Origin: Lishizhenia tianjinensis | GTDB lineage: Bacteria > Bacteroidota > Bacteroidia > Flavobacteriales_D > Crocinitomicaceae | Assembly (NCBI RefSeq): GCF_900116425.1 | Contig: NZ_FPAS01000005.1 | Span: 62,001-126,000 of the forward strand | Direction: 5' to 3' | Length of the DNA: 64,000 nucleotides | Shown: positions 12,042-34,629 of the stretch, piece after piece | Numbering within the stretch: position 1 is the first letter of the stretch | Layout: every line of letters starts with the position of its first letter | Position numbers and translations under genes: made by a program | The notes under the pieces: generated by a model | Databases searched by the model: none | Seen by the model: only the letters and a program-made list of their open reading frames with translations | Told to the model about the DNA's origin: nothing

Positions 12042-13952
12042 ATGAAATATTGTAATTCACTCACAAAACGTACACGCTTTAAAACCAGAGAAGTTAAGAT
12101 AGGTAACTTGACTTTAGGAGGAGGTGCTCCTATCAGGATTCAAAGTATGACCACTGCAGACACCATGGACACGAAAGGTTCTGTTGAAGAATCTATACGC
12201 ATGATAGATGCAGGATGTGAATTAGTGAGACTTACCGCCCCTTCCAAAAAAGAAGCTGAAAACTTAGGCGTTATCAAGGCAGAATTACTTGCAAAAGGCT
12301 ATGATACCCCCTTGGTTGCCGACATTCATTTTACACCTAATGCTGCAGAAATTGCGGCAACAAAAATTGAAAAAGTTAGGGTGAATCCAGGGAATTATGC
12401 CGACAAGAAGAAGTTTGAAGAAATAGAATACAACGACGAAAGCTATCAAGCTGAATTAGAACGTATAGAAAAGAAGTTTACACCGCTCGTACTCTTGTGT
12501 AAGAAGGAAGGTACAGCTATGCGTATAGGTACTAATCACGGTTCTTTATCGGATAGAATTTTGAGTCGCTATGGAGATACTCCTGAAGGAATGGTGGAAT
12601 CAGCGATGGAATTCCTAAGAATTTGTAGAAAGCATGATTTTCATGAAATCGTAATTTCTATGAAAGCCAGCAATACTTTGGTTATGGTTCAAGCCTACCG
12701 TATGTTGGTTGCTGTTATGATGGAAGAAGGTATGAATTATCCTTTGCATTTAGGAGTTACAGAGGCTGGTGACGGTGAAGACGGAAGAATTAAAAGCGCC
12801 GTAGGAATTGGAGCACTTTTAGCCGACGGATTGGGAGATACGATTCGTGTTAGTTTAACAGAAGCGCCCGAATATGAAATACCGGTTGCACAAAAACTCG
12901 TAAACATTTACGAAGAAGAAAATAATGTGGACATCTCTGCAATAGATTCCTTAAAATATGATCCTTTTCACTACACAAGAAGAGATAGTATAGAACTTCA
13001 CAACATTGGACATAAACATGTACCCGTTGTTATTGGAGATTTACATACTACAGAAAATATTAAACCTTCTCACCTCTTTGGATTTGGTCATAACTACGCA
13101 GTAGAACTAGACAAATGGAACCAAAAAGATTTGGCTGCCGACTACATCTATGTAGGACAACAACAGGTAGATTTTGAAACACCTGGTTATTTAGGAATCA
13201 TCTGTGATTTAGATAATTACACAAAAAATTACGCTAACAAAGATCATTTCTTTCCTTTACACACCTCACCTGAAACGCTTTCCCAAACAAATGCAAAAAT
13301 CAACTTTTTAAAGATAAACGTAAATCAATATGACTTTAAACTAATTGATTTACCAAAGAACACCGTACTCATTGCTGAAACAGAAGGAAGCTTTACCCAG
13401 TCTTTTAGAAAATTCTTCAATACGCTGGTTATAGAAAATATTGAAACTCCAGTAATATTGAATTTAAAGCTAAATACAAGCGATTTAGAGCACTATCAAC
13501 TAGAAAGTGGAGCAATGGCAGGTTCTGTGCTAATTGACGGCTTTGGTGATGGTTTATTTATCCAAAATGAACAACACCTACCCCATTTAGCCACTACAAG
13601 TACTGCTTTTGGTATACTTCAAGCTACACGTACACGTATTTCTCGAACAGAGTACATTTCTTGTCCTTCTTGTGGTAGAACACTTTTCGATTTACAAGAA
13701 ACTACTGCTAAGATTAGAAAAAGCACGTCTCATTTGAAAGGTGTTAAAATCGGTATTATGGGTTGTATCGTAAACGGTCCTGGAGAAATGGCCGATGCGG
13801 ATTATGGTTATGTGGGAACGGGACCAGGAAAAATTAATCTTTACAAAGAGAAAGAAGTGATCAAAAGAAATGTTCCGGAAGAAGAGGCGGTAGATGCTTT
13901 GATAGATCTCATTAAGAGCTATGGTGACTGGAATGAAGTTTCTTCACAATAA
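12042..13952 (+). CDS. ispG: 4-hydroxy-3-methylbut-2-enyl diphosphate synthase (IspG/GcpE)
   Basis: IspG converts methylerythritol cyclodiphosphate to HMBPP in the MEP isoprenoid pathway using a 4Fe-4S cluster. The N-terminal TIM barrel is clear (IRIQSMTTADTMDT, VRLTAPSKKEA, PLVADIHFTP, VRVNPGN, MRIGTNHGSLSDRIL). The C-terminal cluster domain has SCPSCGRT and MGCIVNGPGE, giving ligands Cys541, Cys544, Cys575 and Glu582. At 636 residues it is the long form with a central insert (about 330-520) known in Bacteroidota and plants, not the roughly 370-residue E. coli form. A promoter probably lies in the 57 bases upstream. Confidence 0.96.
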   Translation: MKYCNSLTKRTRFKTREVKIGNLTLGGGAPIRIQSMTTADTMDTKGSVEESIRMIDAGCELVRLTAPSKKEAENLGVIKAELLAKGYDTPLVADIHFTPNAAEIAATKIEKVRVNPGNYADKKKFEEIEYNDESYQAELERIEKKFTPLVLLCKKEGTAMRIGTNHGSLSDRILSRYGDTPEGMVESAMEFLRICRKHDFHEIVISMKASNTLVMVQAYRMLVAVMMEEGMNYPLHLGVTEAGDGEDGRIKSAVGIGALLADGLGDTIRVSLTEAPEYEIPVAQKLVNIYEEENNVDISAIDSLKYDPFHYTRRDSIELHNIGHKHVPVVIGDLHTTENIKPSHLFGFGHNYAVELDKWNQKDLAADYIYVGQQQVDFETPGYLGIICDLDNYTKNYANKDHFFPLHTSPETLSQTNAKINFLKINVNQYDFKLIDLPKNTVLIAETEGSFTQSFRKFFNTLVIENIETPVILNLKLNTSDLEHYQLESGAMAGSVLIDGFGDGLFIQNEQHLPHLATTSTAFGILQATRTRISRTEYISCPSCGRTLFDLQETTAKIRKSTSHLKGVKIGIMGCIVNGPGEMADADYGYVGTGPGKINLYKEKEVIKRNVPEEEAVDALIDLIKSYGDWNEVSSQ

Positions 13953-14052
13953 GTTGATAATTTCACAAAACCTTCTCAAAATCACCTAAAATTCGCTTCG
14001 GAATACTCCACGAACACAACTCTCCTAAGGTGTTTCCCTTACAGACACAAAA

Positions 14053-14073
14053 AAAGGCCCTAAATGGGCCTTT
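14053..14073. terminator. Bidirectional terminator after ispG
   Basis: AAAGGCCC-TAAAT-GGGCCTTT forms an 8-bp stem. An A run on the left and T/A-rich bases on the right suit termination of both the plus-strand ispG and the minus-strand methyltransferase gene. Confidence 0.85.
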
Positions 14074-14097
14074 ATACGTTAAAATAGCTTCTATTTC

Positions 14098-14985
14098 CTA
14101 GTCATCATGTCGTAAAACATACACTTGACTACTAAATCCACCTTTTTTCGATCTCAAATTAGAAAGCAAACCGATAATGGCCGCTTTTATAATATTTCCT
14201 CCTTTATACTTTTCAGAAAGCATGGATACATAAAATGAATCAAACTTCATTGGTAACACCTTACACAATTTGATATCATTTAAACAAAACAATTTATCAA
14301 TGTCCTTCTTCTTAAAATGGTACAAGTGACGTGGAACATCATAAGCTGCCCAATACTCTTTGTAATATTCAGCATCATAACTCGCCATATTCGGTACCGC
14401 TACAAAAAGCACTCCCCCTGGTTTTAAAATACGTTTGATTTCTTGAATATCTTTTTGAAGATCGTAAACATGTTCTAAAACATGCCACATAGTAATTACG
14501 TCAGCACTATTATCCTCTAACTTGTATAAATCCGTTTGGGGATGCAACTCTATACCATGCTCTCGCTTACAAAAGGCTCTTGCATCAGCATCAGGTTCTA
14601 TACCAGTAACCGTGTAACCACTGTTTTCAGCAACCTTTAAAAAGTGTCCAGTTCCAGCACCAATATCCAACAAATGTTTTCCATCGGTTTCACTTGCCAA
14701 CCAACGCAATTTTTGACGAAGCGTTTTCACTCTTACCTTGTTGTAAAGAAAATTAACGATTCCTTTATTCGAACTTGAGTGAGATATATACTCTTCAGAC
14801 TTATAGTAAGGACCTATATTTTCCTTGCTCGGTATGGGATTGGTAAAATGAAATTTACAATCATCACATTCTACTATCACAAAGTCTTCCTTTGTAATCA
14901 TGTGATCTTTCACATCCATAAAATGGGTAAATTCAGTTTTACCACATACCGGACATTCTTCTCTATGCATCAAATCTTGTTTCAC
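14098..14985 (-). CDS. SAM-dependent methyltransferase with N-terminal zinc-ribbon-like motif
   Basis: The 295-residue protein starts with two CxxC pairs (ECPVCGKTEF and VECDDCKFHF), probably a zinc ribbon. A class I methyltransferase fold follows: motif I LLDIGAGTGHFL, acidic GIEPDADA, motif IV-like VITMWHVLEHVYD and ILKPGGVLFVAVPN. The family often acts on sugars or surface lipids; the substrate is unknown. The listed start is GTG at 14985, inside a parS palindrome; an ATG at 14970 is an equal alternative and loses only five residues. It is the last gene of the minus-strand operon, 7 bases after mnmG. Confidence 0.82.
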   Translation of the reverse strand: MKQDLMHREECPVCGKTEFTHFMDVKDHMITKEDFVIVECDDCKFHFTNPIPSKENIGPYYKSEEYISHSSSNKGIVNFLYNKVRVKTLRQKLRWLASETDGKHLLDIGAGTGHFLKVAENSGYTVTGIEPDADARAFCKREHGIELHPQTDLYKLEDNSADVITMWHVLEHVYDLQKDIQEIKRILKPGGVLFVAVPNMASYDAEYYKEYWAAYDVPRHLYHFKKKDIDKLFCLNDIKLCKVLPMKFDSFYVSMLSEKYKGGNIIKAAIIGLLSNLRSKKGGFSSQVYVLRHDD

Positions 14986-14993
14986 GTGAAACT
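14978..14993. promoter_or_regulatory. parS-like site 1 (15/16)
   Basis: TGTTTCACGTGAAACT matches the conserved bacterial parS centromere palindrome TGTTTCACGTGAAACA at 15 of 16 positions. ParB/Spo0J binds this sequence to load onto DNA for chromosome segregation. It lies on the mnmG stop codon and the GTG start of the methyltransferase gene. Confidence 0.85.
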
Positions 14994-16866
14994 ATCTTCC
15001 TAAATAAATTAACAAAACGGAAATATCACTTGGTGATACACCGCTTATCCTACTGGCTTGTCCAATAGTTGAAGGCCTAATATCGTTTAATTTTTCGACT
15101 GCTTCTGAACTTAAAGATCCCATTTTTGAAAAATCAACATCATCCGGAATTTTCACACTATCCAAACGACCCAATTTCTTAACAGTATCCTCTTCTCGTT
15201 GGATGTAACCTTCGTATTTCATTTGAATTTCCGTTTGCTCTAAAATATCCTCATGAACATCCAACAATACATCCACTGCTTCTTTCAAATCTGTATTCAC
15301 ATCTATCAATTCAGACAACTTCAATTGTGGTCGAGCAACTAAAGAATCAATCTTTACTTGTTGTTTTAAGATGCTACTCCCTTTCTCCTCCAATAAAGGA
15401 TTAATTTCCTCAGGTGTAACACTTGTCTTATTCAACAACGCTTTCAATTTCGCTGTACCTGAATTTTTCTCATTAACTCTTTTTAAAGCCTCATCAGACG
15501 CCAAACCTATGGCATGACCTAAAGGCGTTAAACGAATATCTGCATTATCTTGACGCAACAAGATTCTATATTCAGCACGAGAAGTAAACATACGGTACGG
15601 CTCCTTCGTTCCTTTCGTAATCAAATCATCTATCAAAACTCCGATGTAAGCATCCGATCTACTCAGTATAAAATCACCCTTACCTAAGGCATGATTCGCT
15701 GCATTAATACCTGCCATTAAACCTTGACAAGCTGCTTCTTCATAACCTGTAGTACCATTAATTTGTCCCGCAAAGAATAAACCTTCAACCAACTTAGTTT
15801 CCAAGGTATGTTTCAATTGTGTCGGTGGAAAGTAATCGTACTCTATTGCATAACCGGGTCTAAACATTTTCACATTTTCGAAACCAGGAATAGTTGTCAT
15901 AGCTTGATACTGCACTTCCTCTGGTAAAGACGTACTAAAACCATTTACATAGATTTCAACGGTATTCCATCCCTCTGGCTCCACAAAGATTTGATGTCTA
16001 TCACGTTCTGCAAAACGATTAATCTTATCCTCTATTGAAGGACAATATCTTGGTCCCGAACTTTTGATTGCACCATTAAACATGGGTGAACGATCAAAAC
16101 CAGAACGTAACAATTCGTGAGTATCTGGATTCGTATAAGTAATATGACAAGGACGTTGGGTTAACAAAGCCTTGCTTTTTGGATCGAAACTAAACTTACC
16201 TTGTATATCATCACCCGGTTGAACTTCCATTTTAGAATAATCTAAAGAACGACCGTCTACTCGCGGCGGTGTTCCCGTTTTCATTCGACCTGCTTCAAAA
16301 CCTAAATCAATCAAACATTCTGTCATACCCGTAGCAGCTCGTTCACCTGCACGACCACCACCAAATTGTTTTTCACCCAGGTGAATCAATCCATTTAAAA
16401 AAGTACCATTCGTCAAAACAACTTTCTTGGCTTTAATCTCCACACCAATACTCGTTCTAACTCCCGTTACTTTTCCATTCTTAACCACTAATTCCGTGGC
16501 CATATCTTGCCAAAAATCCACATTCGGATTTCTTTCCAACAACAAACGCCACTCTTCAGCAAAACGCATTCTATCATTTTGCGTTCTTGGAGACCACATA
16601 GCAGGACCTTTCGAACGATTCAACATACGGAACTGTATAGCACTAGCATCAGAAACCAATCCTGAACCTCCCCCTAAAGCGTCAATCTCTCTCACAATTT
16701 GCCCTTTTGCAACTCCACCCATAGCAGGGTTACAACTCATTTGAGCAATTGTATTCATATTCATCGTAATCAAAAGCACACTCGCACCGATTTTTCCGGC
16801 GGCATTCGCCGCCTCACAACCTGCGTGACCTGCACCCACTACTACAACATCGTATTCTTTTATCAT
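14992..16866 (-). CDS. mnmG: tRNA uridine-5-carboxymethylaminomethyl modification enzyme MnmG (GidA)
   Basis: MnmG with MnmE modifies the wobble uridine (U34) of certain tRNAs using FAD. The product, about 624 residues from the ATG at 16866, has the FAD dinucleotide-binding motif VVVGAGHAGCEAANAAG, the signatures QMSCNPAMGGVAKGQ and GRAGERAATGMTECL, GLFFAGQINGTTGYEEAA and the helical C-terminal MnmE-binding domain. An in-frame start at 16902 would add 12 residues encoded by a parS site, so 16866 is preferred. It lies downstream of ybeY with 20 bases between. Confidence 0.96.
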   Translation of the reverse strand: MIKEYDVVVVGAGHAGCEAANAAGKIGASVLLITMNMNTIAQMSCNPAMGGVAKGQIVREIDALGGGSGLVSDASAIQFRMLNRSKGPAMWSPRTQNDRMRFAEEWRLLLERNPNVDFWQDMATELVVKNGKVTGVRTSIGVEIKAKKVVLTNGTFLNGLIHLGEKQFGGGRAGERAATGMTECLIDLGFEAGRMKTGTPPRVDGRSLDYSKMEVQPGDDIQGKFSFDPKSKALLTQRPCHITYTNPDTHELLRSGFDRSPMFNGAIKSSGPRYCPSIEDKINRFAERDRHQIFVEPEGWNTVEIYVNGFSTSLPEEVQYQAMTTIPGFENVKMFRPGYAIEYDYFPPTQLKHTLETKLVEGLFFAGQINGTTGYEEAACQGLMAGINAANHALGKGDFILSRSDAYIGVLIDDLITKGTKEPYRMFTSRAEYRILLRQDNADIRLTPLGHAIGLASDEALKRVNEKNSGTAKLKALLNKTSVTPEEINPLLEEKGSSILKQQVKIDSLVARPQLKLSELIDVNTDLKEAVDVLLDVHEDILEQTEIQMKYEGYIQREEDTVKKLGRLDSVKIPDDVDFSKMGSLSSEAVEKLNDIRPSTIGQASRISGVSPSDISVLLIYLGR

Positions 16867-16872
16867 AACAAA

Positions 16873-16888
16873 TGTTTCACGTGAAACT
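16873..16888. promoter_or_regulatory. parS-like site 2 (15/16)
   Basis: TGTTTCACGTGAAACT is identical to site 1. It sits in the 20-base gap between the ybeY stop (its TAG overlaps the site) and the mnmG start. Confidence 0.85.
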
Positions 16889-17300
16889 ATTTCAGCATAC
16901 AAAGGTACACATCTTCTTTTTCACGCATAAGCTTTTCTTCACTCTCTGACTTGTCACCATAACCACATAAATGCAAAACACCATGCACAACCACTCTGTG
17001 TAACTCTGTTTCACGTGAAACATTTTGTACAACAGCATTGTCCTGCACCCTATCCCAACTGATAAATAAGTCACCAGTTATTTTGTCATCTTCACAGTAA
17101 TCAAAGGTGATTATGTCTGTATAATAATCATGATTCAAGAACTCGACATTCTTTTCTAACAACCACTCATCACTACCAAAAACAAGGTTTACTTCATCAA
17201 GTTGTTTACCTTCTGCTTGACATACTTTCGTAAGCCATGAAACAAAAAATTCCGAATCTAAATTCGGAATCTCTACATCTTCAAAAAATATATTAATCAT
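16887..17300 (-). CDS. ybeY: Endoribonuclease YbeY (16S rRNA maturation)
   Basis: The 137-residue protein has the YbeY order: VNLVFGSDEWLLEKNVEFLNHDYYTDIITFDY, then GDLFISWDRV, then the metal site HRVVVHGVLHLCGYGDKSESEE. The family motif HGxLHLxGYDH keeps its first two histidines, but the third position is not histidine (GYGDK). In Bacteroidota a KDK-type variant is common, so this may be lineage-normal. YbeY acts in 16S rRNA 3' end maturation and ribosome quality control. It lies 1 base after the ATPase gene and contains a perfect parS palindrome in its coding sequence. Confidence 0.93.
   Translation of the reverse strand: MINIFFEDVEIPNLDSEFFVSWLTKVCQAEGKQLDEVNLVFGSDEWLLEKNVEFLNHDYYTDIITFDYCEDDKITGDLFISWDRVQDNAVVQNVSRETELHRVVVHGVLHLCGYGDKSESEEKLMREKEDVYLCMLK
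17007..17022. promoter_or_regulatory. parS site 3 (perfect 16/16)
   Basis: TGTTTCACGTGAAACA is a perfect 16-bp palindrome equal to the parS consensus. It lies inside ybeY, where the minus strand encodes VSRET. Confidence 0.92.
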
Positions 17301-17301
17301 C

Positions 17302-17715
17302 TTAAAGCTTAAAACTTAAGGTAACTAAGGCACCATTTTCTTCAAAAGCCACATCATCTGCCAAGCTCTTCATTAAAAACACGCCACGACCATTTTCTTT
17401 CTCTAGATTCTCTGGAGCAGTTGGATCAGGTAAATTATTATAATCAAAACCAGCTCCAGCATCCTTAATTGACAGTTTAATAAACTCGTCCTCATTAAAG
17501 GCTTTCACCTTTACTTTTAACGATGCATCACCACCATTACCATGTTGTACTGCATTATTAAAAGCCTCCGTCACAGCAATCAAAACATTACCATAACTTT
17601 CATCACGCACATCCATTTCAAGACATACTTCATCTACAAAAGCTTCTACTCTTGTTAAATTATCTATCGTTGAATCAACCTCAATTGATTTTACAAATTC
17701 TCTTACGTCCGCCAT
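17302..17715 (-). CDS. Anti-sigma-factor-like ATP-binding protein (RsbW/SpoIIAB type)
   Basis: The 137-residue protein is a stand-alone GHKL ATPase domain: N box VTEAFNNAVQHGN, G1 box IKDAGAGFD and G2-like ENGRGVFLMKSLAD. These match serine-kinase anti-sigma factors of the RsbW/SpoIIAB group. In Bacteroidota this gene regularly lies between a DUF4175 gene and ybeY; no cognate anti-anti-sigma gene is visible nearby, so its target is unknown. The start touches the DUF4175 stop (one-base overlap at 17715) and the stop is 1 base from the ybeY start. Confidence 0.88.
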   Translation of the reverse strand: MADVREFVKSIEVDSTIDNLTRVEAFVDEVCLEMDVRDESYGNVLIAVTEAFNNAVQHGNGGDASLKVKVKAFNEDEFIKLSIKDAGAGFDYNNLPDPTAPENLEKENGRGVFLMKSLADDVAFEENGALVTLSFKL

Positions 17716-20700
17716 TAATTAACTCTATTAAAGTATTCACTCGCTCTGTCTTTGTAATACCTCTCTAAGGTGGGATTTAAAGACCTTAATAGCTCAAGTT
17801 GTTTTTCTTTCAACTTCTTATACTCTAAAAAATCAATAGGGTTACCTTTTTCTTCATTTTTTCCTTCTTCACTTTCACGTTGCTCATCAAAGCCTCTTTC
17901 TTTCAGTGCTTTCTCGCTTTCCAACATACGTGTTAAAATCTCTTGTTGACGATTAATTAACTCCTGATTCCATTGTTTATTAATCAATTCTTCTTGCTGT
18001 TTTTCGAGCTCTTCCAACAAAGGGTTTAACACATCACCTTCCCTTTTCCCACCTTTATTCAATTCGTTCTTCATTTCTTCTAAACGACGTCTAATCTCAC
18101 TTTGCTGCGCTGCCATTTGTGCAGCTTGTTGAGCTCCCATAGGTATAGGATTTGAACCTTTTTGGTTACCTGGTTTATTCCCTCCTGGAGACATCCCTTT
18201 TTTCATACTCTCTAGTTGCTTCTTCAGCATCTCCTTCATCCCTTCCATTGATTGATTTCCAGAGCTACCCTTTCCTTTACCTCCTGGGTTATTACAAGAA
18301 CCACTACCCCCATCTTGTCCTTGCATTTCTTCTTGCATCTGGGATAAACTTTCATCAAACAACAAGGCCAAGTTATTAAAACTGGTCATCACATACTGTT
18401 GCTTAACCACCAAAGAGCTCACCTTTCTTTCATCAATATCTTCCAGCAATGCTGAATAATTTCTATCAATAGACCTTAACTCTTGATCAATAAACTTTGC
18501 GATTTTCGGATTACGCATAGCCAAGGCCTCTAAACTATCCTTTAAAGGAACTGCATCATCCATTATTTTACGTTGCTCTCTTCCCACATTTATATACTCG
18601 GGATCTGAACTATCCATAGCCCCAAACTTCTCCATGTTTGCTTCCTGACTTACACTCAAATCAACCAATGATTCTAAACACGCCCTTAAGAACTCATAAT
18701 CCTCTTGATTCTGTTCTTGTTGACTTTGCATTTGCATACCATTAATTTTTGCCGCCATCTCCTTCATGTCGTCCGCCGCTTTCTTCTGGTTTTGTTTCGC
18801 TTTTTCCTTTTTATTCTTTGATAAACTCTCTTCAGACTCCGAAAAAGTTTCTTTCACATCCTCTTTTTCCTCCTTAAGATCTTCCATATCTAAAGGACGT
18901 TTCAACTCTTCATTCTCCTTCAACGTCTCCTCATAATCCTTCATAAGCTCATCGAAACTTTCTTCCAAGGCTTTTTGTTCCTTCAATTTCTCATCTACAG
19001 CTTTGTTAGACTCCGACAGCTCCTCCATTTCATCAGCCAACTCCTTCAAAGCTTCTTCAATATCATTCAGTTTCTCATTCACCTGTAATTGTTTCAGTTG
19101 TTCCAAAGCCCTATCTAACTCTTTGTTCAACTCCTCAGCACTTTTCTCTACCTCTTCACTTAACTCCTTTTGTCCGTTATCCTTTTGCTGTTCCAAAAGC
19201 TTCTCCAATTCCTCTAATAAATCTTTCAATTCATCATCCATCAACTCTTCTAACAACTCATTTAACAACTCCTGTTTTTCCAATAATTCAAGTTCTTCTT
19301 CAGAGAATTTATCCTTCTTTTCCCAAGAATCTTCCAAGTCCTTTTTAATATCTTCTAAAAGCTTTTCTAAACTCTGTTGTTGTTTTTGTACTTCTTCTAA
19401 ACGCTGTTTCTTATTCCAATCACTCGCCTTGTTGTTGAGTAAATTCTTTTTCAAATCCTTCACGCTTTTCTGAAAATCCTCTGCCTTCTTCATCGCCTCT
19501 TCCATACTTGAATTAGCTTTTTGCAAATCCTCTTGTCTTTCTTTCTTTAATTCCTCTTTAGAAGGAATCGCTAAGGTATATACCGTACTTTTGGTCTTCT
19601 TTGAGCCATTCACCTTGTCATTATCCAACACTTCGAAATAATAGCTCACTCTATCTTCTGGTTTCAAATTCAAACGCGAAAAATCAAAAGACATATCAAT
19701 AATACCTTCCGTTGAACCTATGCCTGGCAGTCGTGTTCGCTCAACCTTCTTTTCTCCATTTTTACTTTCAATAACATAAACGAAGGCAACTTCCAAAATT
19801 CCTATATCATCCTTTGCACTTCCATCAAAATCTATCTTATTCACATTGGTACTATCCACAATTCTCTGTAAAGCCAGGGTTGGATAAGCATCCTTAATCA
19901 CTTCTATATTGTAGGTTAATGATTCTTTATTACCCAATTCGTTACTCTCCAAAACGAAACTTAGCTTTTCGTCTTTCTTCACGGTTAAAGAAAAATTGAC
20001 TCCCTTTTCATTAAAGGACGTCACACTATCCCCCACCTCTATTTTTAAACTAGCTGCATTTTTTGACAACAAATCATAACGAATCACGGTACCTTCAGGA
20101 ACTAAAAGATCTGCAACATTTTCTACCACTTCATTTTTCATTCCCAGATAGCTTGGGTACACTAATTCTGCATTGAACTTTACAAATCCAGCCTTGCCCA
20201 CTACATCAACCTGATAAGCTTCGCTTTCAAAACCATTGGCTGAAAAATAAAAGGACAGATCTTGCGTAATTTTTGGAAAACTATATGAACGCTTATCCTT
20301 TGTTGACTGTTCCATTAAAAACACGCCTTGATCCGAATGGATAAATACTTTGTCTGGTAAGGCTTCATTTTTCTTTGCTTTCAAACGAAGGTTTAACATC
20401 AAGGCTTCCCCTTCTTCAACTTTCAAATTTTCATTCTCCAAAACAAAATCAAAAGGAGCAGGAATAGCATAGTGCGTATTGTAATTGATTAACCTTTCTG
20501 TTCCTTCTTTATAAAAGGAAGGAGCAAAAACTGCCAACGCCAATACAACTAAGAAAACTGGAACTACATATTTTAAATACTTTTTGTTTTCAGAAATATC
20601 TATGGCCGATGAAAAAGGAACGGCACTTAACTGATTGGATTTTTGCTCAACGCTTGCCAACAACAAATCGTAATGCTTTTGTTCCCTTGAAGCAGCTTCC

Positions 20701-28877: not shown

Positions 28878-30278
28878 TTCCGGTCTATTTTCTGCATTCA
28901 ATAAGATCCAAGCCGTGTGGTAAACCAGACGGCTTACTTTTTCCACCTTATCAAAATCAATTTTATCTACCGTATCTGTAGCTTGGTGATAATCCTCATG
29001 TACCCCACTGAAATAAAAGATGCTTGGCACATCATGCTTTGCAAAATTATAATGATCTGATCTGTAATAAAACCTATTCGGATCTTCTAAACTATTGTAG
29101 GTATAGTCTAATTCTAGATTTACAAATTCAGTATTTGCCCTTTCGTTGGCATCGTGTAAATCATTGCTCAACATATTACTTCCTATGATATAGACGTAAT
29201 CAGCTTTCCCTTGATGTACTTCATCTACCCTACCTATCATGTCTATATTTAGATTGGTAATGGTATTTTCCATGGCAAAAATTGGATGATCAGAATAGTA
29301 AGAGGAACCTAAAAGTCCTTTTTCTTCTCCGGCAACGGGCATAATCAACAAACTTCTTTTTGGTCCATTCCCTTCATCCTTCGCACGTTGAAAAGCCTCA
29401 GCTATTTCTAACAAAGCAACAGTTCCTGTTCCATCGTCATCTGCTCCGTTAAAAATTTTTCCATCGTGGGCACCTATATGATCATAGTGGGCGGTTAGCA
29501 CCAAGACTTCATTTTTTAAGATAGAATCAGTTCCTTCTATAAAAGCCAATACATTTTCTGTATCTAACACTTTTGATGCGGTGCTAACGGCAAAAGAAAA
29601 GTCTAATTTTTTCAAGCTCTTTCCTACTTTATTAACATCCACAAAAAGTAAAGGAACTTGCTCCTTTTTATCGTCATCGATTAAGGTCATTTTAGAACTC
29701 GTAACGTGATGTTCCAAAATTTCAAAGTGCTTTTCGTAGTTATCAACAATACACGTAACACTGGCTGCACCGAACTTTTTTAAAGCTCTATATTCTGCAA
29801 TGATTTGAAAACTTGTAAGTGTATCGTTGGCATAAAAAACAACATCATTCCCCTTGATACTACTTTCTGAAGTTGCTTTAAGGTCTACAATCAGTTTATA
29901 ACTTCCTTCTCTCTGACTTTGTTCATTGGCAAACAAGTAGAAAAAGTCTTCTTGAAGTTGAAGCTTCTTCTTGTGCAAAGTGAGAGATCCTGAAAAAACG
30001 GTCTCTAATACTTGAAAGGGAAACCTGTAATCGGGATGGGATGGTGGAGCTTGGAGTCCGTCTTCTTTAAAAGAAGCTATTAAATAGTCCGCCGCTAATT
30101 TCTGACCTTCATACCCTGTTTCTCTTCCCGCAAAAGAATCCGAGGCTATTACATGAAGGTGTTTAGATAATTCTTCCTTATTAATATAGTGGGCATAATC
30201 TTCGGCTTTACCTTGAGATAAAACCGAAGCGCTCAAAAAAAATATAGGTAGATAGATTAGAGATTTTAACATGCACAA
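28863..30278 (-). CDS. Peptidase family M28 (zinc aminopeptidase)
   Basis: The 471-residue protein starts with a signal peptide (MLKSLIYLPIFFLSASVLSQ) and is predicted to be exported. Metal and catalytic residues of M28 are in order: LTAHYDHIG (His), NGADDDGTGTVALLE (bridging Asp), GEEKGLLGS (Glu pair), LNIDMIGR (Asp) and RSDHYNFAKHDVPSIFYFSG (His). A protease-associated-like insertion (about 120-240) lies before the core. The family releases N-terminal residues from peptides. Start at 30278 or 30272; both overlap the rpiB end, so the two genes are coupled. Confidence 0.9.
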   Translation of the reverse strand: MCMLKSLIYLPIFFLSASVLSQGKAEDYAHYINKEELSKHLHVIASDSFAGRETGYEGQKLAADYLIASFKEDGLQAPPSHPDYRFPFQVLETVFSGSLTLHKKKLQLQEDFFYLFANEQSQREGSYKLIVDLKATSESSIKGNDVVFYANDTLTSFQIIAEYRALKKFGAASVTCIVDNYEKHFEILEHHVTSSKMTLIDDDKKEQVPLLFVDVNKVGKSLKKLDFSFAVSTASKVLDTENVLAFIEGTDSILKNEVLVLTAHYDHIGAHDGKIFNGADDDGTGTVALLEIAEAFQRAKDEGNGPKRSLLIMPVAGEEKGLLGSSYYSDHPIFAMENTITNLNIDMIGRVDEVHQGKADYVYIIGSNMLSNDLHDANERANTEFVNLELDYTYNSLEDPNRFYYRSDHYNFAKHDVPSIFYFSGVHEDYHQATDTVDKIDFDKVEKVSRLVYHTAWILLNAENRPELISQ

Positions 30279-30709
30279 GCAATTTTATCTACTCTTCTTT
30301 GGTGACGTCCACCTTCGAATTCAGTTGTTAAAAAAGTCTCTACCATTTCTAAAGCTGCCTCTTCAGTAACAAAACGAGCTGGTAATGAGATGATGTTTGC
30401 ATTGTTGTGTTCTCTAGCTAACTGAGCAATTTCATTTTGCCAACACAAGGCACATCTAATTTCTTGGTGCTTATTTGCTGTCATGCTTATTCCATTTCCA
30501 GAACCACAGATCAAAATTCCTAAAGTTCCTTCATTTGCAGCTACTTTATCTGCTACTGGGTGAGCATAATCAGGGTAATCAATGCTATCTTCAGAATGAC
30601 ATCCGAAGTCTTCAAACTCGTATCCTTTTGCACTAAATACTTCTTTGATTTTCTCTTTTAAAGCGTAACCTGCATGATCACAACCAATTGGAATAACTCT
30701 TTTACTCAT
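30266..30709 (-). CDS. rpiB: Ribose-5-phosphate isomerase B
   Basis: The 147-residue RpiB interconverts ribose 5-phosphate and ribulose 5-phosphate in the pentose phosphate pathway. Motifs are IPIGCDHAGYALKE, DFGCHSEDSIDYPDYAHPVA and the catalytic-cysteine loop GILICGSGNGISMTANK, with INxxR-like phosphate contacts and the HQRRVDKI tail. Length is typical. It is first in a two-gene operon with the M28 peptidase and reads away from the large non-coding region. Confidence 0.95.
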   Translation of the reverse strand: MSKRVIPIGCDHAGYALKEKIKEVFSAKGYEFEDFGCHSEDSIDYPDYAHPVADKVAANEGTLGILICGSGNGISMTANKHQEIRCALCWQNEIAQLAREHNNANIISLPARFVTEEAALEMVETFLTTEFEGGRHQRRVDKIACAC

Positions 30710-30729
30710 TTTACCGTTTTTTATTTCTA

Positions 30730-30761
30730 CAAAAATAAGGCTTAATAGGTGTAATTAACAA
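30730..30761 (-). promoter_or_regulatory. rpiB promoter
   Basis: On the minus strand TTG (30759-30761) and TATTTTTG (30730-30737) are 21 bases apart, a full match to the Bacteroidota TTG/TAnnTTTG promoter. The -7 box lies 20 bases from the rpiB start. Confidence 0.7.
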
Positions 30762-30769
30762 TTTTCAAG

Positions 30770-31725
30770 CTTTCATTCTATGTTTTATACCCTTATTAAC
30801 ATTCATCTGTAGTTATTAACAATTGCCCAAAATTGCCTTTTGTAATCGCCTTGTTTTAAAGGAGTTTAAGAAATTGACTTTTGCACAAGAATTGTGACTA
30901 AATTGTTAATACTTGTCAAGTAAAAATGAAAAGAAAGACTTGGAATATTCAATTTAAATTCCAAACCAGAATAGAATTGAAAAAAGCAATAGTAAGTTAT
31001 TATTTTTTCCGCTTTGTTATTCACATAGTTTTGGAGGGTTAAAAACCACTTTTAACTAAAAAAGTTTTTCATAGTCATTGATTTCTTCAAATTGTTAATA
31101 ACCTATCTAATCCTTTTAAAATCAACTTGCAGAAAACTATCGATTTCGTTAATAACCCTAAGCTTAAATGTGAATTACGATAAAAACAACTGAATATTAA
31201 GATTCTTTTACACAGTATTAACACCTTAATAAGTAATAGTAAAACCTTTTTAAAAAATTCTCTTTTCTTTTTTTCTTATTCTTTAGGGTAAATAGATGAA
31301 ACTTGGATTATTGAAAAAAAATGGCTATCTCTAATTTCATCCACCTTGAAATCTACCTAAACACCTATAAACAAAGGGCTTTACAAATCAATAAGAATTT
31401 AGTTTAACGAATTTATTCGCACTCAAAAGTAGCTTGCACGAAGAAGGTTTTCGATTTTAAGTTTTTACAGTTATTCACAAACAAAAATCACTACCTATAT
31501 ATAGATGGAAAAAGCATGTTAAAAATGAGTTGGAGTGGCTAGCGTTTTTGTGAAATAAATCTGATAGCGTGAAAAGCTATGAAGAGCGTATAGATTTAAG
31601 AGAATTTTTAGAGCTTTTAACAGGTTTGAATTGTTTATGTTAATAACCCCGTAAGTCCTTTGAAATACGTTACTTATATTCTAATTCCATAAAGTACTTT
31701 GAATTGTTTTTTCATCTGAAAAGGT
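30770..31725. other. Candidate replication origin (oriC): non-coding AT-rich region with DnaA-box-like repeats
   Basis: The gap between divergent rpiB and gcvP is about 1 kb and has no credible ORF, in a window where gaps rarely exceed 250 bases. It holds TTATTAACA at 30793-30801 and 30813-30821 and its complement at 31093-31101 and 31638-31646. TTATTCACA occurs at 31017-31025 and 31471-31479, and TTTTACACA at 31206-31214. Near matches lie at 31147-31155 and 31215-31223. TTATTCACA and TTTTACACA fit the DnaA-box consensus TTWTNCACA, and TTATTAACA differs by one base. Very AT-rich tracts (for example 31240-31285) could be an unwinding element. dnaA is not adjacent, as in many Bacteroidota. Confidence 0.55.
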
Positions 31726-31730
31726 TAATG

Positions 31731-31738
31731 TATATTTG
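31731..31738 (+). promoter_or_regulatory. -7 promoter element of gcvP
   Basis: TATATTTG matches TAnnTTTG, 20 bases before the gcvP ATG. No clear TTG at the optimal distance was found. Confidence 0.55.
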
Positions 31739-31758
31739 CAGCCTCAAAATATATGTAA

Positions 31759-33228
31759 ATGAGCGCTTTTTCTAATAGACACATAGGTCCAAATGCTGCA
31801 GAGAAAACTGCCATGTTGGAGAAAATAGGTGTTAAATCTGTTGAAGAGTTGGTAGACAAGACGATACCAGCTCATATCCGTTTGAAGGGAGAATTAAATA
31901 TAGACGCTGCTTTAACTGAGGAAGAGTATTTGGCTCATGCTCAAGAATTGGCTGCGAAAAACCAAGTATTTAAGTCTTTCATAGGTTTAGGATACAACGA
32001 AACAATTATTCCTCCAGTAATTCAACGTAACGTTCTAGAGAATCCAGGATGGTATACGGCATACACGCCTTACCAAGCTGAAATTTCTCAAGGTAGATTA
32101 GAAGCTTTGTTGAATTTCCAAACCATGGTAATGGAACTTACAGGAATGGAGTTGGCAAATGCTTCATTGTTGGATGAGTCTACTGCTGTTGCGGAAGCTA
32201 TGATTATGTTCTTTAACGCAAGAAAAAGAGCTGATGTAAAAGCAGGAAGAAATAAGTGTTTCGTTTCTGAGTTCTCTTTTCCACAAACTATAGACGTAGT
32301 AAAAGGAAGAGCTGAAAACTTAGGAATTGAATTAGTAATAGGTAACCCAGAAACTTTCGAAGGAGATGCTACTTTCTTCGGAGCTTTGGTACAATACCCA
32401 GATGCTTTAGGTAGAGTAAAGAAAAACTTGGAAGGATTTATTTCAAGAATGCACGCAAAAGACATTAAAGTTTCTGTAGCGGCTGATTTACTTTCTTTAG
32501 TATTGTTGAAATCTCCAGGTTCTATGGGAGCTGATGTTGTTTGTGGATCTACACAACGTTTCGGTGTTCCTATGGGGTATGGTGGACCTCACGCAGCTTA
32601 CTTTGCAACAAAGGAAGATTACAAGAGACACGTACCAGGTAGAATTATTGGAGTTTCTAAAGATGTGGATGACAATGTAGCATTGCGTATGGCTTTGCAA
32701 ACACGTGAGCAACACATTAAAAGAGATAAAGCAACTTCTAACATCTGTACAGCACAAGCTTTATTAGCTGTTATGGCAAGTATGTACGCAGTTTACCACG
32801 GACCACAAGGTATGCGTGAGATTGCAACATCTGTTCACAACAAAGCGAAAAAAGTTGCTGAAGGTGCAGTTGCCTTAGGATACGAATTAGGATATGATCA
32901 ATACTTCGATACAATTTGGTTGAAAACACCAGTTGGAGTAATGACGCACGATATCAAAAAAATAGCAGAAGCTAACAAATTCAATTTCCGTTACATCAGC
33001 GGTTCTGAAATGACTTTAAGTTTTGGAGAGCGTGTAACAGAAACAGATATTAACGGAGTTTTAGCTGTATTAGCAGCAGCTGTTAAGAAAAATGCTACAG
33101 CTACTACTTTAGATACAACTATCGCTTTAGAGGATGAGTTCATGAGAACTGATGCTGTGTTTACACACGAGGTTTTCAACAAATACCACTCGGAGTCTAA
33201 AATGATGCGTTACTTGAAGCGTTTATAG
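31759..33228 (+). CDS. gcvP: Glycine decarboxylase P protein, N-terminal half (gene interrupted by TAG)
   Basis: This 489-residue ORF is the N-terminal half of a single-chain GcvP: FSNRHIGPNAAEKTAML, SFIGLGYNETIIPPVI, NPGWYTAYTPYQAEISQGRLEAL (here part of the conserved block) and GVPMGYGGPHAAYFA. It stops at TAG (33226-33228) where relatives continue [20 protein letters not shown]. The same frame resumes at once and runs to 34629. GAG to TAG is one base change. The full enzyme (about 950 residues, PLP-dependent) decarboxylates glycine in the glycine cleavage system. Most likely a nonsense mutation or a sequence error; a natural GcvPA/GcvPB split normally falls some tens of residues earlier. 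Confidence 0.9.
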   Translation: MSAFSNRHIGPNAAEKTAMLEKIGVKSVEELVDKTIPAHIRLKGELNIDAALTEEEYLAHAQELAAKNQVFKSFIGLGYNETIIPPVIQRNVLENPGWYTAYTPYQAEISQGRLEALLNFQTMVMELTGMELANASLLDESTAVAEAMIMFFNARKRADVKAGRNKCFVSEFSFPQTIDVVKGRAENLGIELVIGNPETFEGDATFFGALVQYPDALGRVKKNLEGFISRMHAKDIKVSVAADLLSLVLLKSPGSMGADVVCGSTQRFGVPMGYGGPHAAYFATKEDYKRHVPGRIIGVSKDVDDNVALRMALQTREQHIKRDKATSNICTAQALLAVMASMYAVYHGPQGMREIATSVHNKAKKVAEGAVALGYELGYDQYFDTIWLKTPVGVMTHDIKKIAEANKFNFRYISGSEMTLSFGERVTETDINGVLAVLAAAVKKNATATTLDTTIALEDEFMRTDAVFTHEVFNKYHSESKMMRYLKRL

Positions 33229-33243
33229 AACAAGGATTTATCA

Positions 33244-34629
33244 TTGGTACACTCTATGATTCCATTAGGATCATGTACGATGAAATTGAACGCTGCATCT
33301 GAATTAATGCCGATTACTTTCCCAGGATTTGCACACATGCACCCTTTTGCACCATTGGAGCAAGCACAAGGGTACCATGAAATGTTTGCGCAGTTAGAGA
33401 AAGATTTATGTGAAGCTACAGGTTTTGCTGCTATGTCTTTACAACCTAACTCTGGAGCACAAGGTGAATACGCTGGATTGATGGTAATTAAAGCTTACCA
33501 CGAAGCTAACGGAGATGCAGACCGTAAGGTTTGTTTAATTCCTTCTTCTGCACACGGTACTAACCCTGCATCTGCAGTAATGGCTGGTTTCGAAATCGTT
33601 GTTACGAAGTGTGATGAAATGGGGAACATCGACGTGGAAGATTTGAAAGCGAAAGCTGAAGAACACAAAGATAGATTAGGTGCCTTAATGGTTACTTACC
33701 CATCAACGCACGGTGTATACGAAGAAGCAATTCAAGAAATTACTTCTATTATTCACGCACATGGTGGACAAGTTTACATGGATGGTGCAAATATGAACGC
33801 TCAGGTTGGTTTAACTAACCCAGGTAACATTGGAGCAGACGTTTGTCACTTAAACTTACACAAAACATTTGCTATCCCTCACGGTGGTGGTGGACCAGGA
33901 ATGGGACCTATCGGAGTAGCGGCTCACTTAGCAGACTTCTTACCAGGATCTGTTATGTTAGAAAAAGCTGGAGGTTCTAAAGCAATTAATGCAGTTTCTG
34001 CAGCACCTTACGGATCGGCGTTAATCTTAATGATTTCTTACGCTTACATCAAAATGTTAGGAGCTGAAGGATTGAGACATTCTACAGAAATGGCAATTGT
34101 AAATGCAAACTACATCAAAGCAAGATTGAGCGAGCACTACGGTATTCTTTACACAGGTAAAAACAATACGGTAGCACACGAAATGATCTTGGATTGTAGA
34201 GACTTTAAACGTGATGCAGGAGTAGAAGTTGCTGACATCGCTAAGCGTTTGATCGATTACGGATTCCACTCTCCAACTGTATCTTTCCCAGTAGCTGAAA
34301 CATTAATGATAGAGCCTACTGAATCTGAAGATAAAGAAGAGTTAGACAGATTTTGTGATGCTATGATTAGCATTAGAAAAGAAATCAAAGAAATCGAAAA
34401 TGGTCATGCAGATAGAGAAAACAACTTGTTGAAAAATGCACCGCACACTGCAGATTGTATTATCAATAAAGATTGGAACTATCCTTACTCTCCACAAGAA
34501 GCTGCTTACCCAATTGAGTACTTAAAAGATTACAAATACTGGGTTCCTGTAAGAAGAGTTGACAACGCATTTGGTGATAGAAACTTAATTTGTTCTTGTC
34601 CAAGTATTGAAAGCTACGAAATGGCTTAA
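33244..34629 (+). CDS. gcvP: Glycine decarboxylase P protein, C-terminal half (same frame after TAG)
   Basis: This 461-residue segment is the C-terminal half of GcvP in the same frame as the upstream part, with only the TAG between. It contains [32 protein letters not shown] and the PLP-lysine motif [25 protein letters not shown], and ends in the usual C-terminal region. The nominal start (TTG at 33244) has no obvious translation signal, so unless there is readthrough or reinitiation this half is not made. All key residues are intact, which argues for a very recent lesion or a sequencing error. Confidence 0.88.

Follow-up and report, generated by a model that had tools for sequence, protein, structure and literature searches.

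The residues by which DnaA reads its boxes have been described for E. coli, where positions 399, 423, 432-435, 438 and 439 contact bases and a T435M protein is defective in box binding (PMC5043019, PMC5742627), and residues 435, 438 and 439, the first of which is Ala in the bacterium considered here, are proposed as candidates in the paper on the box of the Epsilonproteobacteria (PMC5043019). Among Bacteroidetes, oriC is described as commonly distant from dnaA (PMC4755523); Ori-Finder 2022, which defaults to TTATCCACA (PMC10225481), has been used to assign a flavobacterial strain an oriC at mnmG (PMC12843772), and Blattabacterium has been reported to be without DnaA boxes and dnaA (PMC2768785). 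The available portions of the two papers with Ori-Finder origins (PMC4755523, PMC12843772) do not describe the form of the box, and the main text of the survey of basal unwinding systems (BUS; PMC8287927) contains no words beginning with Bacteroid or Flavobacter. Literature searches, most subscription journals being outside their scope, found no description of a TTATTAACA-type box; papers matching the 9-mer strings were, among the matches listed, unrelated by title to replication origins, and by title none of the literature on rpiB and oriC concerned a Bacteroidetes origin.

The window, i.e. the whole 64-kb stretch of DNA that was analysed (G000:C7:62001-126000), is part of a 3.56-Mb genome in 13 contigs; judged by RpiB, genomes labelled Flavobacteriales and Fluviicola are among its closest named relatives. 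Its largest gene-free stretch is the 1,049-bp gap (30710-31758) between the divergent genes rpiB (ribose 5-phosphate isomerase B; 30266-30709, minus strand) and gcvP (31759-34629, plus strand), the maximum between open reading frames of at least 80 aa; bases 1-1007 of the window are likewise without a listed open reading frame and may belong to a gene truncated at the end of the window. The gap is AT-rich (73% A+T, 764 of 1,049 bp). An in-frame TAG at 33226-33228 divides gcvP into two open reading frames of 489 and 461 aa, which correspond to the N- and C-terminal portions of a single GcvP; a nonsense mutation, a misassembly or a split gene would explain this. A further gene of the window, at 12042-13952, encodes a GcpE (IspG) homologue of 636 aa in which the 343 positions of the GcpE profile are spread over residues 15-625, which suggests a large insert in this putative protein.

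A preliminary description of this DNA had proposed the rpiB-gcvP gap as a candidate chromosomal replication origin, and we now predict with high confidence that the entire gap is oriC, an interpretation supported by the skew minimum of the contig, nearby parS sites, a conserved unwinding-type element and the skew of two of three one-contig relatives. Four exact copies of TTATTAACA, two per strand (30793-30801 and 30813-30821, plus; 31093-31101 and 31638-31646, minus), two of TTATTCACA (31017-31025 and 31471-31479, both plus) and one TTTTACACA (31206-31214, plus) had been listed and were all recovered, the last two forms being C6 boxes of the TTWTNCACA type. To these can be added TTTTGCACA (30879-30887, plus) and a GTATTAACA (31215-31223, plus) which directly adjoins the box at 31206, as well as a predicted box TTTTTAACA (31517-31525, minus) and three weaker boxes, namely a second GTATTAACA (30904-30912, minus), TTATTAACG (31147-31155, minus) and CTATAAACA (31365-31373, plus). 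The commonest form in the gap is TTATTAACA, and position 6 is A in four of the six TTATNMACA boxes, in place of the canonical C6 of TTWTNCACA. As judged from the letters, many of the boxes would be one base away from the textbook DnaA site, in a form that appears common to related bacteria.

The density of these 9-mers distinguishes the gap from other intergenic DNA, the comparison by which the earlier proposal could have failed. Six TTATTMACA sites are present in its 1,049 bp and two in 28,602 bp of intergenic DNA drawn from 389.5 kb of this genome, such that 0.07 would be expected (Poisson P 2e-10), and the broader TT[AT]TNMACA yields 9 sites against 0.73 expected from the same intergenic DNA, the densest 1-kb cluster in the 389.5 kb; the reversed control ACAMNTATT is slightly high in the gap too (2 versus 0.15 expected). 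A genome-wide excess of TTATTMACA, suggested as a check at the outset, did not emerge, with 113 sites against 128 of the reversed control, so that this 9-mer is clustered at the gap and not enriched overall; among the 100 of these 113 places that were listed, two is the most that any further 1-kb stretch contains. In the window, TTWTNCACA taken by itself is not overrepresented, with 11 sites against 11.67 expected.

Within the gap, the segment 31206-31264 resembles the published basal unwinding system, and a basal unwinding element is predicted at 31205-31264 on the plus strand. Its boxes, TTTTACACA at 31206-31214 and GTATTAACA at 31215-31223, stand head to tail with a 9-bp step, and are followed by a DnaA-trio-like array, TAATAA-G-TAATAGTAA (31227-31242, plus), which begins 12 nt downstream of the first box and 3 nt downstream of the second, and then by an AT tract. 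A BUS consists of one or two boxes with at least three trios on their 3' side within about 16 bp, and this arrangement is present, with TAATAA at 31227 and TAATAGTAA at 31234, the latter starting 10 nt past the second box; between trios two and three the array slips by one base. By nearest-neighbour energies, the 80 bp at 31194-31273, where melting would be expected, are the least stable of the gap and the third least stable distinct 80-bp stretch in the 64 kb. At least three trios lie 3' of a box in 12 of 27 relatives (shuffle mean 1.4, maximum 3) and on the 5' side in 5 of 27, a 5' count that leaves out one value of 21 as a slicing artefact; for 22 named loci picked by the author from 50, the corresponding figures are 6 and 2. 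A sequence-only model of the element, R1, was built from 10 relatives, with this genome excluded and the training elements picked by eye from 12 (L112 and L124 omitted). Its best match in the whole genome is 31205-31264 (28.1 bits, E 9.3e-6; next E 0.062), a hold-out that is not blind since the element of this genome had been seen before the training elements were chosen.

The unusual box is also found upstream of rpiB in relatives. By k-mer count, TATTAACA is present there in 24 of 27 relatives (3.6 expected) and TTATGAACA in 10 of 27 (0.23 expected). The most numerous TTATNNACA form is TTATNAACA, with 52 sites against 4.0 expected, followed by TTATNCACA (15 versus 1.0), TTATNGACA (8 versus 0.9) and TTATNTACA (2 versus 2.8), so that the share of A6 is 52 of 67 and C6 forms coexist with it; a second set of 36 named loci gave 50 A6 sites (6.2 expected) and 24 C6 sites (1.9 expected). 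These counts leave out L103 and L119, two of the 29 relatives, whose intergenic regions span 112 and 72 bp, as well as 14 of the 50 named loci, where that region is no longer than 150 bp. Relative to shuffles, which were first-order Markov samples, A6 and C6 are enriched 13- and 15-fold in the 27 relatives and 8- and 12-fold in the named loci. The altered main box form put forward in the preliminary description is therefore main by number, but by enrichment the two forms are alike, and the box of the clade is better written TTATN[A/C]ACA, with A more numerous and both similarly enriched. Together with A6, each of the four letters exceeds expectation at position 5, which is free just as in the known DnaA box; forms changed at position 4, 7 or 8 drop to about background, whereas positions 1, 2 (A) and 3 (G) are partly tolerant, as is position 9 (G), for which sites are few.

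An origin-independent test, the 300 nt upstream of dnaA, lends supportive but modest backing to this box form. Regions from the order of the window contain 16 TTWTNAACA in 12 of 30 (8.3 expected; 2 of 200 shuffles reach 16) and no TTWTNCACA (2.3 expected), and those of 27 other Bacteroidota contain 21 TTATCCACA in 14 regions (0.1 expected) and 9 TTATNAACA (0.8 expected), after one of 31 and two of 29 regions, respectively, had been dropped. Two genomes outside the clade served for comparison. In G087 (67% GC), 200 kb contain no more than two TTATNAACA and two TTATNCACA, all of them upstream of dnaA, and the skew minimum of these 200 kb is elsewhere; G065 has its minimum over 200 kb at 1345432, with no box cluster there. 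Both outcomes are uninformative on position 6 at Thr435 origins.

It could be argued that the gap is indeed oriC, with the TTATTAACA-type repeats bound by another protein, such as an auxiliary initiator or a nucleoid protein, and DnaA confined to TTWTNCACA. C6 boxes are available for this in the gap (two TTATTCACA, TTTTACACA and TTTTGCACA), and the 15 TTATNCACA of the 27 relatives exceed their shuffles by as large a factor as the A form does. We nevertheless consider it unlikely, because the A form has the canonical free fifth position and requires its letters at positions 4, 7 and 8, because it provides the second box of the pair before the trios in most of the ten training elements, and because both forms stand together upstream of dnaA in G087.

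The dnaA gene is located on another contig (C2:495685) than the predicted oriC. The recognition helix of its product reads GGKDHATV, and SLANIG is found where the best-matching solved DnaA (8btg), which we take to be that of B. subtilis, has SLPKIG; in 8btg the helix reads GGRDHTTV. E. coli residue numbers used here follow the papers cited above and the E. coli sequence, whose domain was also matched. GGKDHATV is found at each of 31 DnaA loci sampled from the order, this genome among them, and at 22 of 22 in a further sample, also including this genome. Of 30 named genomes searched, 28 gave a match, and 24 of these have DHATV with SLA, the four exceptions, with Terrimonas, Flavisolibacter, Roseivirga and Cytophagales labels, having SLK and DH[S/T]TV. 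Residue 435 is Ser or Thr in all 29 DnaA of other Bacteroidota, a set that is score-biased as its loci come from the 30 best-scoring of 41 genomes. Helix change and A6 box thus co-occur in the clade; a causal link is unproven, as A6 boxes occur with Ser435 too. As to DnaA genes elsewhere, one genome of the order (G100, 99% complete) has no match to the DnaA C-terminal domain, perhaps through an assembly gap, perhaps through loss, and second matches to this box-binding domain were found in some genomes (G037:C1:3653229; G043:C12:5380, L273; G123:C12:160315, L302), in short open frames of 129-173 aa.

A strict switch between C6 and A6 by residue 435 is weakened by several observations: Ser435 DnaA accompanies A6 in G087, where two A6 and two C6 boxes occur, and a Ser435-type DnaA accompanies three TTATNAACA upstream of dnaA in another genome (G060/L227); Nonlabens-type DnaA, with Ala435, goes with roughly equal numbers of A6 and C6; and in the regions upstream of rpiB the two forms exceed shuffles to a similar degree. 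It is tempting to speculate on a retuned initiator-origin code, in which Ala in DnaA at the base-contacting residue 435 and at the P423 position would go with a shift of boxes from TTATCCACA towards TTATNAACA, often with a C6 box retained as the first of the unwinding pair, as a switch of graded affinity. Its scope would be a large part of the Bacteroidia, comprising the order of the window, relatives in Flavobacterium and Nonlabens, and some MAGs labelled Bacteroidales. We put this forward tentatively and think it rather doubtful, the equal enrichment of A6 and C6 over shuffles having lowered its probability; if true, C6 boxes would anchor DnaA early and A6 boxes would fill when ATP-DnaA is high.

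The unwinding element is conserved beside rpiB. Among 120 genomes of the order, own included, R1 matches 89 at E<=1 and 28 (own included) at E<1e-3, the matches between 0.001 and 1 being mostly at chance level; 31 genomes are without a match at E<=1, and 16 of the 20 listed among these belong to one family (f9). At E<1e-3, rpiB is in the same locus (within 1.5 kb on either side) in 24 of the 27 other genomes, or 20 of 23 without four training genomes, and in all 24 genomes having rpiB in the locus the element is directed away from it. The three exceptions are G012, G032 and G152; in the first two, which represent one genus, rpiB is on another contig, and the origin neighbourhood is apparently rearranged. 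An open reading frame resembling a membrane protein, alike by eye in both, adjoins the element at these two loci (L321, G012:C29; L323, G032:C23). Nine of 19 further rpiB loci from the first relatives, none of them in training, match at E<0.02, and the five closest named relatives (L022-L026, one of them a Fluviicola sp. MAG) all have the element (E 1.5e-7 to 2.1e-6 in 733 kb), 438-449 nt from rpiB and with 66-76% ungapped identity to the nearest training row. No match better than E 0.014 was obtained at Flavobacterium and Nonlabens loci, which indicates that the element, in the form captured by R1, is a feature of the closer relatives of the window.

These data bear on whether the repeats could be transcription factor operators for rpiB or gcvP in a region that is no origin, as a gap between divergent genes with sites on both strands might suggest. 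We find this very improbable: among the element loci of 29 relatives, rpiB adjoins in 25 and gcvP in none, gcvP being found beside the element in this genome alone, and the position of the element away from rpiB, on another contig, in G012 and G032 argues that it is not merely a regulatory site of rpiB. Moreover, skew minimum and parS sites coincide with the region.

The cumulative GC skew of contig C7 has its minimum inside the gap, at position 31495 of the window, as would be anticipated from the origin first proposed; skew in this genome, whose 13 contigs are unordered, was covered for this contig and five stretches of another. Likewise, for two of the three relatives assembled as one contig, the 60-80 kb around rpiB have their minimum within about 1.5 kb of that gene. 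One of them (G004) has its minimum of 60 kb at 2741365, some 1.1 kb beyond the end of rpiB (2742435-2742866), with a weak element match at 2743317 (E 0.13) and parS-like sites 21-22 kb from rpiB; its dnaA is at the start of the record, 1.6 Mb from the skew switch if circular, and the sampled skew is positive on either side of dnaA, which indicates that the origin of G004 is not there. The other (G037) has minimum, element and rpiB at 315, 421-479 and from 886, respectively, the minimum preceding the start of rpiB by about 0.6 kb, and a parS at 17389, about 16 kb from rpiB. The third, a member of the order (G053), has its minimum of 60 kb 14 kb away from rpiB and gave no match to the element model. 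The parS sites noted earlier at a distance of 14-16 kb, measured to the box at 31206, were likewise confirmed: TGTTTCACGTGAAACA at 17007 and two copies of it with one mismatch each (14978 and 16873) lie around mnmG/gidA (14978-17022), and are all three such sites in the genome with at most one mismatch. No parS-like sites were found in G053, G060 and G090. That the true origin lies at dnaA, mnmG or elsewhere, the gap being a secondary datA-like titration cluster at a local change of skew, is hardly credible, for although dnaA is on another contig, the skew of this genome does not come from its surroundings and Ori-Finder chose mnmG in the flavobacterial strain, the mnmG/parS stretch (13952-17750, with mnmG about 14 kb from the gap) is without any TT[A/T]TNMACA, skew in G004 switches at rpiB and not at dnaA, and a distant dnaA is common in Bacteroidetes.

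With the gap taken as oriC, its location, box cluster, skew switch and conserved element in fixed orientation to rpiB, as computed, can be combined with published work on other bacteria into a scheme of initiation. The HTH domain of DnaA would bind the nine TT[A/T]TN[A/C]ACA and several weaker boxes over 0.9 kb, and a filament of ATP-DnaA would grow from the pair at 31206-31223 over the TA[A/G] trios of 31227-31242, melting the AT-rich DNA on their far side, in the direction away from rpiB. Helicases would be loaded at the melted tract, leading to bidirectional replication, and ParB bound to parS would segregate the origin region.

What is new in this locus would be the A6 box and a clade-specific unwinding element, in an origin otherwise probably of known type. 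Predictors defaulting to TTATCCACA may miss or misplace origins of this clade, and in draft genomes of the close relatives of the window the element model can serve as a practical marker of the origin. A box change across many genera, together with a change in the DnaA helix, constitutes a natural test of co-change between initiator and origin.

The closest parallel to the element is the B. subtilis BUS (PMC8287927): as far as described there, tandem boxes with the upstream one nearer the consensus, TA[A/G] trios on the 3' side and then an AT-rich tract are common to both, and the 12 nt from upstream box to first trio fall inside the 10-13 bp peak of that paper. Unlike in the BUS, the second box here is of A6 type, the slip means that the unbroken run of three trios starts 10 nt past the second box and 19 past the first, and the element is on another contig than dnaA. 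The box shares with E. coli TTWTNCACA (PMC5742627, PMC5043019) its nine letters, the free fifth position, the TTAT start and the ACA end, whereas in the clade position 6 is more often A than C and positions 1 to 3 are more tolerant. As in the Epsilonproteobacteria, with their TTCAC core, a box of the lineage's own is accompanied by an altered DnaA recognition helix, but there position 5 is described as fixed to T (PMC5043019) and here it is position 6 that varies. Like the Ori-Finder origin of Prevotella intermedia, predicted with E. coli boxes at one mismatch (PMC4755523), the present one has its DnaA boxes where the skew switches and is located away from dnaA, and it differs from the Ori-Finder origin of the flavobacterial strain (PMC12843772) in that the latter is named after mnmG, and not rpiB.
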